The position numbers and the translations under genes were made by a program. Source: Patellaria atrata CBS 101060 (Eukaryota; Ascomycota; Dothideomycetes; Patellariales; Patellariaceae). From it: DNA of 61,698 nucleotides. The stretch is from positions 486,615 to 548,312 of the forward strand of contig MU006105.1 of assembly GCA_010093705.1 (NCBI GenBank), in the 5' to 3' direction. Below the pieces are notes generated by a model, which worked only from the letters and a program-made list of their open reading frames with translations, did not search any database and was not told where the DNA came from. Positions 24,145-27,277 of the stretch are shown here, in pieces (within the stretch, counting starts at the first letter, position 1; the number at the start of each line of letters is the position of its first letter).

Positions 24145-25668
24145 TCATAGATTTCCTCTCTTCTCTTGCTCCCTCTCTATCGCCTCAAACAAGCTCTTGA
24201 AATTACCAGCCCCAAACCCATCGAAATTATTCCTCTGAATAATCTCAATGAAGACAGTAGGACGATCCAAAAGCGGCTGCAAAAAGACGATCAGCACACA
24301 ACTACCACCATAAAAACGCGCTCATCAGGCTCAAACATACCTTAGTAAACAACTGTAACAGATAACCCCCCTCATCAAAATCAATAAGAATATTCAACCT
24401 CCTAATCGTCTCAAAATCCTCTTCCACCTTCACTCCCCCCTCCTTCAACCGTCTCCTCATCTCCGTATAATACGTATCCGGCACCGTGATAAACTCCACC
24501 CCCCTCGCATACATCTTGCTCACCGTATCGATGATATCCCTCGTTCTCAGCGCAATGTGCTGCACCCCCGGCCCATTATAAAACTCCACATACTCCTCGA
24601 TCTGCGACTTCCGCTTCCCGTGCGCCGGCTCGTTGATAGGCATCTTGACCACCTCGTTCGGGGACGCCATGACGACGGACCTCAGCGCGGAGAACTCGGT
24701 ACAGACATCCGTGTCGTCGACGGACCAGAAGCGGTGGAAGCCGAGACATTGCTCATAACTGTTCCTATCAGCTTAACCCCACAAAAAAAAAGCGCTTTAA
24801 CACCAAACCCAAAACAAAACCAGGGGGAAAGAGGAAGAAGCAACACTCACAACTCACAAGCGCCCTCCATACCCCCCCACCCCATATTCCCGACACAATG
24901 ATCCACCGCCTCCAACACCACCTTCCCCCCTCCCACTCCCAGTCCCCGCATATCCACAAACGGATCCACCCGCTCAACCACCCGGTACCCAGGCAAAAAC
25001 ACCCCTCCGTACCCCCGTTTCTCCACAAACGTATGCGTCGTATCCCCATACGTCCGCACCGTCGCAAGTACCACCTCCCCCTCTTCCCCGGCGTCTCTAT
25101 GCACTTTAGGCGCCGACACTCCAACAGCACCACGCGCGATGGCAGTATGGTAGAGTGTCGTTGCGTCATCGACGTGAAAAGCCACGTCGGCTACACCGTC
25201 GCCGTGCTGGGCGATGTGCGTGTGGATCTGGTCTACCAAGTCACTTCCCCTATCCCCCTCTGTAAATTCCCCTTTGTCCCCCGCGTCTCCAAATCCGGGG
25301 GTATGGCGGGCCAAACCCCGGACTTTCCGCGGTGGTCGCAGCGCAGAAACGAACTCGAAGACTACGGCCCCGTTGGCCACGACGTGGGAGCAGGTATGCC
25401 GGTCGCCGGTTTCGAGACCCCGGTAGCAGAGGGGGGAGAAGCCGAGGCGGGTTATGTAGTAGCTAGCGCTTTGTTTGGCGTTGGAGACGTACCAGGTTAT
25501 GTGGTGGTAGCTGTGGTAGACTGGGGAGGGGGTGGGGGGTTGGACGGGGAGGGAGGTGGAGGAGGGGGGTTGGAGTGCGAGCGTGTCTTTTGTGTAGAAG
25601 GGAATGGTTGTGCCTTGGGCTGTTAAGACCGCGGGGGAGAGCGGTGGACTTATCGTTCCGGGCGCCAT
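24145..25668 (-). CDS. HPD: 4-hydroxyphenylpyruvate dioxygenase
   Basis: Three exons (25668-24851, 24758-24341, 24276-24145) encode 455 residues. The enzyme turns 4-hydroxyphenylpyruvate into homogentisate in tyrosine breakdown and also feeds pyomelanin formation. The Fe(II) ligands are His257 ([10 protein letters not shown]), His340 (GPGVQHIAL) and Glu423 (VFIEIIQRN); each is 83 residues from the next, the spacing known for the human enzyme. The N-terminal vicinal-oxygen-chelate half starts at about 53 ([18 protein letters not shown]), FHRFWSVDD follows the second exon joint, and the end [20 protein letters not shown] is typical. The first 50 residues are Pro/Ser/Thr-rich and longer than in animals. 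It diverges from the TTC36 homologue across 835 bases. Confidence 0.96.
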
Positions 25669-26503
25669 CGTCTGGTGGTGAGTGTAGATTTGAGTGGAAG
25701 TTCAGGTGTATAGGCTCGAGTATACCTATGGTAGTTTCGAGTGTATATCTTCGAGTATATATATTTAAAGTCCCAAATAAATAGTTCAGGTTCCAGTATA
25801 AAAATATCTGAATATCCAAAAGAAAAAACTAAATAAAGTGCAAGTATATATAAACCGAGTATACCAAATTCTCAAATGATCATAAAGTCTCTATGTATTC
25901 AGATAAAGTTCTCCCCCTATCCTCCCTTTCCCACCCTTTAACCCGCCCTTACCCTCACCCTTCCACCTCAATCCCCATACCACCACGAGATTTCAAACTC
26001 CTCGCCCTTCCGCCCACCTCACCCACCAATCTCAATTTTCCGAAATCGTACGTCAGCATTCTTAAGCCGCCTTACCACCCCTCAATATCCTATATACAGT
26101 ACAAAGTACATGCTCGGATACTTCATCCTCCCCTTAAGCCGCGCTCGGCTTAATGCGGCTTAACGGCATAAGCATCCATCAACAGGACAACACCGAAAGA
26201 TAATGAAGGGTGTGATACTGTAATACGGTAAAAGAGCGGTAAGGAGAGGGATAGAGACTTCGGGTTATGCTGGAGGTCTTTCTTTTGGTTTTAGGGGGGG
26301 AGGGGATAAGTGTTTGATTTCACGCCGCGGATAGATTCCATATTGCTCTGAACTACTTTTTGGGAATATCTGGATATTTAATTCTCGGATATAAACGTAT
26401 CATCCCTTCTTCGACGAGCTTTAGAGTCTATACTCTGCTATAACCAAATTCTACCGAAATACCCTCAAACTGCCGATATCTGCTTCTAAAATCTACCGCC
26501 ACC
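25669..26503. promoter_or_regulatory. Shared divergent promoter region of HPD and TTC36
   Basis: The 835 bases between the two start codons hold no gene. The HPD side has several GAGTATA/GTATATAT sequences (25715-25860) that could serve as TATA elements on the minus strand. The TTC36 side has a pyrimidine-rich leader before a CCACC-ATG start. That the region serves both genes is inferred from layout. Confidence 0.5.
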
Positions 26504-27277
26504 ATGTCCCCCCCCCTAACCTCAACACCCCAAATCACACCCTTAGACAACCAAACCCTAACCGCAATATTCGACCCCGAATCTGCTTCCTCCGTCCCGA
26601 CGCCAACCATCCTCCCCACCCTCCCCTCAGACCCACACATCCCCCACTCTCTCCTCCAGATGCTCAAAGCGCGCGAAATCGCCGTCATCCGGACCATCGA
26701 ATCCGCCGCCCCCTCAGAAAAACACATGTCCTACCTCCACGCGCGCCAAAGCTTCGAGGACCTAATATCCGCGCACCTGACATACGCCAGCGCGTACAAC
26801 AACCTCGCGCAACTGATCCGATGGCGGTTCGGGGACCGAGGGACCCTAGTCCACCGAGACACGGAGATGGAGAAGGAGGTCGGGAGAGCTATGAACGATG
26901 CGATAGTCGCTTTGAATAAGGCTGTGAAATTGGCGGCGCCGGAGACGCCTACAGCTCCTGTCTCCCCGGCTCAGGCGAGGACCCTGGCGCAAGCGTATAC
27001 CCAGCTTGGTTCTATTTTCTACTCTGCTTTTAAAGATCTGCAGGCGGCGGAGGAGGACGGGGTTACGGTTGTGATAGGAGGTGGAGAGAGGGGTGGAGGG
27101 GAGTGGATGGAGTGGAGGGAAGAGAGGTTCGAGGAGGAGGCTAGTCGGTGCTTTTTTAGGGGTGGGTTGTATGGGAATGAGATTGGGAGGGCGATGGCGG
27201 TGCATACGAATCCGTATGCGAAGTTGTGTGGGAGTATTGTTAAGGAGGCAATGAGGAGGGAGGGGGTACCGGTGTGA
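26504..27277 (+). CDS. TTC36: TTC36-family tetratricopeptide repeat protein
   Basis: An intronless frame of 257 residues. It matches the layout of animal TTC36: an N-terminal LTAIFDPES (animal AIFNPD), a TPR core including YASAYNNLAQLIRWRFGD (animal RASAYNNRAQ), a second TPR-like pair ending LGSIFYSAF, and a C terminus with GNEIGRAMAVHTNPYAKLC (animal NPYAALC). It is longer than the animal protein (about 190 residues) because of an N-terminal linker and a Gly/Glu-rich insert near 185-205. In mammals TTC36 binds chaperones and has been linked to HPD stability in liver. The fungal role is not known; its position next to HPD suggests the same partner. Confidence 0.85.
   Translation: MSPPLTSTPQITPLDNQTLTAIFDPESASSVPTPTILPTLPSDPHIPHSLLQMLKAREIAVIRTIESAAPSEKHMSYLHARQSFEDLISAHLTYASAYNNLAQLIRWRFGDRGTLVHRDTEMEKEVGRAMNDAIVALNKAVKLAAPETPTAPVSPAQARTLAQAYTQLGSIFYSAFKDLQAAEEDGVTVVIGGGERGGGEWMEWREERFEEEASRCFFRGGLYGNEIGRAMAVHTNPYAKLCGSIVKEAMRREGVPV

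Follow-up and report, generated by a model that had tools for sequence, protein, structure and literature searches.

A divergent partner gene of 4-hydroxyphenylpyruvate dioxygenase in Patellaria atrata: fungal HmgX as the probable TTC36 orthologue of ascomycetes

We analysed a 61.7-kb segment (hereafter the window) of contig C17 (633,632 bases) in the 28.3 Mb, 46-contig genome of Patellaria atrata (Dothideomycetes). In it, the gene for 4-hydroxyphenylpyruvate dioxygenase (HPD, hppD) and a gene for a protein of 257 amino acids (aa) are transcribed divergently from one 835-bp region. We identify the 257-aa protein with near certainty as HmgX, known from the Aspergillus tyrosine cluster as an accessory factor of HppD. 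Profile comparisons indicate that TTC36 most likely has its ascomycete orthologue in HmgX. Our preferred reading, to which we assign a probability of roughly 0.7, is that this orthologue is a tetratricopeptide repeat (TPR) protein dedicated to HPD, which keeps the enzyme folded and active. The hppD-hmgX pairing itself was already known; the family link between HmgX and TTC36 is the new part.

The hmgX gene is an intronless open reading frame at positions 26504-27277 of the window (plus strand), HPD occupies 25668-24145 (minus strand), and the two start codons are separated by the 835-bp shared divergent promoter region at 25669-26503, exactly as an earlier note on this DNA had placed them. Its identification as HmgX is based on adjacency to hppD, size, intronless structure and the name under which one relative, P0063, is recorded (L-tyrosine degradation cluster protein). 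The search for relatives found 224 sequences, 120 of which were listed, most without an organism name. Another listed relative, P0061, is named tetratricopeptide repeat protein 36-like, indicating that some database annotation had already noticed the likeness to TTC36. No significant family was detected in the window protein by Pfam (TPR_12, E 0.67) or by NCBIfam. When searched against its own genome, the protein matched itself and one other place at E 0.156, and the HPD gene was the sole match to TIGR01263 at E <= 0.001; no second copy of either gene was found in the P. atrata genome. We infer that the window protein is the functional HmgX of this fungus. A public partial protein model from P. 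atrata CBS 101060 (P0003) is identical to the window protein at all shared residues. It omits residues 189-203 (27068-27112), which lie in a low-complexity stretch and were apparently taken for an intron; the frame is open throughout.

The relationship between HmgX and TTC36 was assessed with profiles built from alignments whose members were hand-picked for spread. To the window protein, the HmgX alignment (A1) added 21 relatives from the 120 listed. Two TTC36 alignments contained 16 vertebrate sequences (A2; from 120 listed of 536 found) and 26 sequences (A3; from 238 different ones listed, with 536 and 475 found); vertebrate TTC36 were gathered with a human sequence as bait and the other TTC36 with a consensus that we made. 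According to hhalign, the profile of 22 HmgX aligned end to end with that of the 26 animal and fungal TTC36 over 182 columns (E 1.3e-33). The profile-profile alignment with the 16 vertebrate sequences only was also end to end (E 8.6e-19).

Searches of one family with the profile of the other gave the same picture. With the HmgX profile, all 26 TTC36 were recovered (29.1-90.5 bits), against a maximum of 11.8 among 5200 shuffled sequences. The early-fungal TTC36 scored highest (63.7-90.5 bits, versus 29.1-54.1 for animal TTC36), as expected of stepping stones. In the opposite direction, the TTC36 profile recovered 22/22 HmgX at 61.3-93.3 bits. The best of 93 decoys, six-frame stretches drawn from nine TPR loci of the P. 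atrata genome (eight of its 20 TPR_19 places and the place at C3:664871), reached 22.0, and none of the 93 appeared in the match list of the HmgX profile. Over the window and these nine loci, the TTC36 profile favoured the gene at 26504-27277. Against the PDB, the HmgX profile scored at most 16.6 bits (1s4k, not named a TPR protein), and its best TPR chain was 7y4i at 14.4 bits.

Because TPR repeats can mislead, the C-terminal non-TPR tail was tested separately. In the window protein this tail corresponds to residues 223-252 (27170-27259, plus strand; YGNEIGRAMAVHTNPYAKLCGSIVKEAMRR), and it scored 38.4 bits with the TTC36 tail profile. The 37-residue TTC36 tail profile found 22/22 HmgX at 33.0-42.5 bits, compared with 9.3 for the best of 4400 shuffled HmgX sequences; reciprocally, the HmgX tail profile found 26/26 TTC36 at 10.8-42.3 bits, with a best score of 7.0 among 5200 shuffled sequences. 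The three landmarks by which the earlier note had recognised the family, TAIFDPE, ASAYNNLAQ and NPYAKLC, are all present in the window protein, and the C-terminal one is significant alone.

Conserved positions also coincide. When 20 HmgX and 26 TTC36 sequences were aligned together (P0003 and P0115, a copy of P0108, were left out), columns at least 90% conserved numbered 60 and 31, respectively, of the 180 shared. Twenty-three of them are common to both families (p 3.4e-7); the residue is identical at 21 of these, which run from D15 to C242. Both families conserve D15 and L19. A maximum-likelihood tree of 47 rows, from which P0003 was omitted as a partial copy of the window protein, separated all fungi from all animals (100/99). 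When rooted on animals, it placed HmgX within fungal TTC36 as neighbour of the two Mortierella-group sequences (94/84, marginally short of the starred level), and the wider node excluding Polychytrium received 95/87. This placement agrees with the species tree. Profiles, tail and tree together bear out the assignment of the protein to the TTC36 family proposed in the earlier note.

Among the matches listed, TTC36 occurs in molluscs, echinoderms, corals, two sponges and five early-diverging fungi. It also occurs in three Caenorhabditis species (japonica, nigoni and brenneri), while C. elegans was not among the listed names. Its occurrence in animals, including sponges, and in early-diverging fungi means that the family is older than the split of fungi and animals. 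At the sensitivity used, TTC36 was not found outside eukaryotes: 31 bacterial or archaeal genome stretches fit a TTC36 pattern, and none was confirmed.

Several observations weigh against this interpretation. Generic TPR arrays in the PDB also score highly with the TTC36 profile, 62 sequences reaching E <= 1e-5 and the best 126.5 bits; as this direction is unspecific for TPR arrays, we place weight on the HmgX profile and on the non-TPR tail. A whole-genome search with one opossum TTC36 sequence returned a single candidate, the TPR place at C3:664871 (E 0.0032), and missed the window gene; the animal TTC36 profile reverses this order (45.3 bits for the window gene versus 23.4 for the C3:664871 place). 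The N-terminal D..VL..IF.P module is not significant on its own (1.1-14.8 bits, P0001 at 3.1, shuffled maximum 9.7), and at L92, L101 and A136 the window protein carries residues other than the nearly invariant ones of the two families. HmgX sits on a long stem of 2.69 changes per column, in a tree whose rows are HmgX and TTC36 with no other TPR family. Among the 120 listed relatives none is identifiable as A. fumigatus HmgX, and the identity with HmgX is by description. On the functional side, the literature examined yielded no binding or HPD protein-level data for the fungal pair, and hmgX and hpdA mutants of P. marneffei are reported to behave alike in vitro and differently inside macrophages.

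Published phenotypes connect both proteins with HPD. The hmgX gene of A. fumigatus is described as 771 bp long, with no intron and no conserved domain, and hppD adjoins hmgX in most ascomycetes sequenced by 2011 (Keller 2011); hppD-hmgX clusters are reported from Dothideomycetes and Eurotiomycetes (Greene 2014). According to Keller 2011, hmgX is required in A. fumigatus for HPD output and pyomelanin. Its loss leaves hppD mRNA unaffected and leads in culture to accumulation of 4-hydroxyphenylpyruvate (pHPP) and zero homogentisate; crude extract of an hmgX hmgA double mutant gave no homogentisate either (Keller 2011). A. fumigatus HmgX is reported to be cytoplasmic and co-induced with HPD by tyrosine. 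The main text of Keller 2011 contains no Western, proteomic, two-hybrid or immunoprecipitation terms, and we take HppD protein as unmeasured in that study. In the mouse, TTC36 is reported to bind the VOC2 domain of HPD, not via the QEYVD sequence, and Ttc36-/- animals have lower liver HPD and higher tyrosine, which was explained by TTC36 reducing both STK33 phosphorylation of HPD T382 and PELI1 binding (Xie 2019). According to these reports, loss of HmgX in A. fumigatus or of TTC36 in the mouse impairs the HPD step. They also contain what the earlier note had put forward or supposed, namely a tie of mammalian TTC36 to HPD stability and tyrosine, adjacency of the gene pair beyond P. atrata, and an influence of the partner on homogentisate and pyomelanin.

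For hmgX, Keller 2011 could find no homologue in human, C. elegans or Dictyostelium, and no statement equating HmgX with TTC36 was found in the openly licensed literature searched. The idea that a 13-aa HPD segment found only in ascomycetes marks the need for HmgX is weakened, because human and Caenorhabditis also have the family.

HmgX and TTC36 may act alike. In the mechanism we propose, HmgX would be expressed from the promoter region that also serves HPD and would bind the conserved catalytic VOC2 half of the enzyme, presumably with the TPR groove and the C-terminal tail as the contact surface. It would keep HPD folded and active, putatively at a folding or maturation step; without it, pHPP would not be converted to homogentisate and no pyomelanin would form. 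A dedicated folding or maturation factor fits both the fungal and the mouse facts, and prevention of HPD loss and activation of HPD are both possible.

The structure of the HPD gene bears on this choice. The 455-aa HPD, identified by TIGR01263 and solved HPD structures, is encoded on the minus strand by three exons (25668-24851, 24758-24341 and 24276-24145), with the ATG at 25668 and the end of the stop at 24145 after splicing. An alternative exon 2 acceptor would give 457 aa; the 455-aa form is preferred because it aligns with the 8jbw chain without a two-residue insertion. All three exons were matched by TIGR01263 (4HPPD) in the genome search. In a separate search exon 1 alone scored 117.8 bits, under the whole-protein cut-off of 277 as expected for a single exon, and the spliced 457-aa form scored up to 539 bits against solved HPDs. 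The segment TVFIEIIQR and one further segment, which we take to be the iron-ligand segments of HPD, are present. The stop codon (24145-24147, minus strand) follows immediately after RGNL. In 5ec3 and 1sqi, chains of 393 residues that are presumably human and rat HPD, respectively, the residue aligned to the last one of the window HPD is number 381. A third chain, 3isq (also 393 residues), aligned to residue 374 at this point, which we read as shifted numbering. Judged from these alignments, the window HPD lacks a counterpart of T382 and of any tail beyond it. A 242-aa plus-strand open reading frame at 24898-25626, antisense to HPD exon 1, is probably a by-product of codon usage.

As the enzyme ends before the T382 position, any ancestral role common to HmgX and TTC36 cannot have been the shielding of T382; it was probably the folding or upkeep of HPD. 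On balance we lean, with restrained confidence, towards a wider scheme in which a dedicated HPD chaperone predates the split of fungi and animals, persists as TTC36 in animals and early fungi and as HmgX in ascomycetes, and matures or holds VOC2. The STK33-PELI1 control would then be a later mammalian layer on a tail that is absent from this HPD.

The strongest alternative is that HmgX, as a TTC36 homologue, works as in mouse liver, shielding HPD from a kinase and a ubiquitin ligase, so that its loss leads to degradation of the enzyme. Such an action of TTC36, with STK33 and PELI1 at T382, is described in Xie 2019, and HPD degradation via another site may occur in a fungal hmgX mutant. However, the T382 site is absent from P. 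atrata HPD with its RGNL end, and STK33 and PELI1 are not known from fungi. Moreover, no homogentisate whatever was detected in A. fumigatus without hmgX (Keller 2011). We regard this alternative as unlikely.

In the AlphaFold2 model of the window protein (mean pLDDT 85.1), predicted TPR-like helix pairs span residues 48-222 (26645-27169, plus strand), with helices at 48-66, 70-90, 95-109, 121-144, 155-185 and 206-222. This model and that of Basidiobolus TTC36 (mean pLDDT 85.3) have eight main helices each in the same order, and their short extra helices differ. With Foldseek, the HmgX model drew no match at E <= 0.001; the fungal TTC36 model drew 65, the rows listed being mostly TPR or designed repeat proteins. 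The predicted HmgX and TTC36 models resemble TPR proteins in a common fold and no more.

Somewhat less probable than the mouse-liver mode is an EEVD-clamp co-chaperone that delivers Hsp70 or Hsp90 to HPD. At the clamp positions of HOP, which we take to be K8, N12, N43, K73 and R77, TTC36 has E, V, N, Q and Q, about 1/5 kept as read by eye from A3. The residues that clamp the Hsp70/Hsp90 tail thus seem lost, which speaks against a simple adaptor.

It is very improbable that HmgX and TTC36 are unrelated TPR proteins each serving HPD by chance: the insignificant Pfam result and the failed single-sequence opossum search agree with such a view, and the non-TPR tail match, the end-to-end profile alignment and the early-fungal stepping stones contradict it. 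The least credible proposal is that the neighbourhood is fortuitous and the 257-aa protein unrelated to HPD in P. atrata; the gene pair is known here from sequence alone, but adjacency in most ascomycetes and tyrosine co-induction in A. fumigatus are published (Keller 2011), and the shared region holds a motif cluster unique in the genome, with the same 9-mer occurring once between hmgA and fahA.

This cluster consists of four TTAAGCCG elements at 26062-26163 (26062 and 26134 on the plus strand; 26146 and 26156 on the minus strand), according to the motif count. A palindrome, TTAAGCCG-N4-CGGCTTAA, at 26134-26153 is the sole occurrence in the genome. Four copies per window are unremarkable in number, being reached by 6/100 shuffles; the clustering is remarkable, as all four fall in a 102-base span inside the shared promoter region. 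The 9-mer TTAAGCCGC has 78 copies in the genome, fewer than its backward-read control (184), and the three copies in the promoter are the only ones of the 78 with a neighbouring copy within 1 kb. The Poisson probability of three copies in 835 bp is 2e-9, a figure that is overstated because the word was chosen from the same region. Contig C2 carries another copy, in the interval separating hmgA (minus) from fahA (plus), the chance of this being about 0.001-0.002 (gaps of 440 or 725 bp, estimated gene starts, one look). As a lead rather than proof, the TTAAGCCGC/TTAAGCCG cluster is a candidate binding site for a tyrosine regulator of the HmgR kind. The P. marneffei paper predicts an HmgR site, the sequence of which was not found in its main text.

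The genes hmgA and fahA stand back to back on contig C2 (locus L017, 1361500-1369500 of G000:C2), and the fahA match contains one in-frame TAA, perhaps in an intron. According to Greene 2014, hmgA orthologues occurred in just one Dothideomycete of its set. A PF04082 fungal transcription-factor gene (L017:208-1695, minus strand) adjoins hmgA and is a candidate HmgR. Its zinc-cluster-like stretch (CEPCRIRKLAYDHTVPCQRC) has a tyrosine at the usual third-cysteine position, so the strict Zn2Cys6 pattern does not match this factor. The same strict pattern was absent from all six frames of the window, where an intron-split motif would escape it. Other Pfam-recognised neighbours in the window, at 27591-32973 and 9566-10582, are TIP41, a protein kinase, an M76 peptidase, an amino-acid kinase with a PUA domain and Xan_ur_permease.

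If the link holds, fungal HmgX, described in 2011 as an accessory factor with no animal homologue reported, and mammalian TTC36, described in 2019 as an HPD protector, appear to be one family. For HmgX this would supply both family and fold; for TTC36 it would supply a simple model whose phenotype is all or nothing. The mode of action would become testable by cross-complementation. Were an ancient HPD chaperone confirmed, defects in TTC36 would raise tyrosine directly, as chaperone defects, and HmgX would be a genetic model for them. The drug nitisinone and herbicides act on HPD, so an obligate HPD partner is of practical interest.

Among known systems, the closest counterparts of the P. atrata gene are HmgX of A. 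fumigatus (AFUA_2G04210) and of Penicillium marneffei, which likewise neighbour hppD, share a divergent promoter region with it, and are intronless and without a known domain; the A. fumigatus gene measures 771 bp and that of P. atrata 774 bp with the stop. Unlike in the A. fumigatus tyrosine cluster, hmgA and fahA of P. atrata are near each other on another contig. The early-fungal TTC36 of Polychytrium, Basidiobolus, Thamnocephalis, Entomortierella and Podila are the closest relatives of HmgX in the tree, are shorter than HmgX and have Pfam-recognised TPRs. Animal TTC36 (HBP21) is colinear with HmgX end to end and shares the constant residues E58, E66, S96, N99, N100, A102, Q103, R106, Q167, G224, N236, P237 and C242 (HmgX numbering), whereas HmgX has longer loops (257 versus about 190 aa) and a long stem branch, and its HPD partner here, unlike mammalian HPD, lacks the T382 tail. 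The TPR domains of HOP/STI1 have the TPR fold in common with these proteins, although their clamp residues are seemingly not kept in TTC36.

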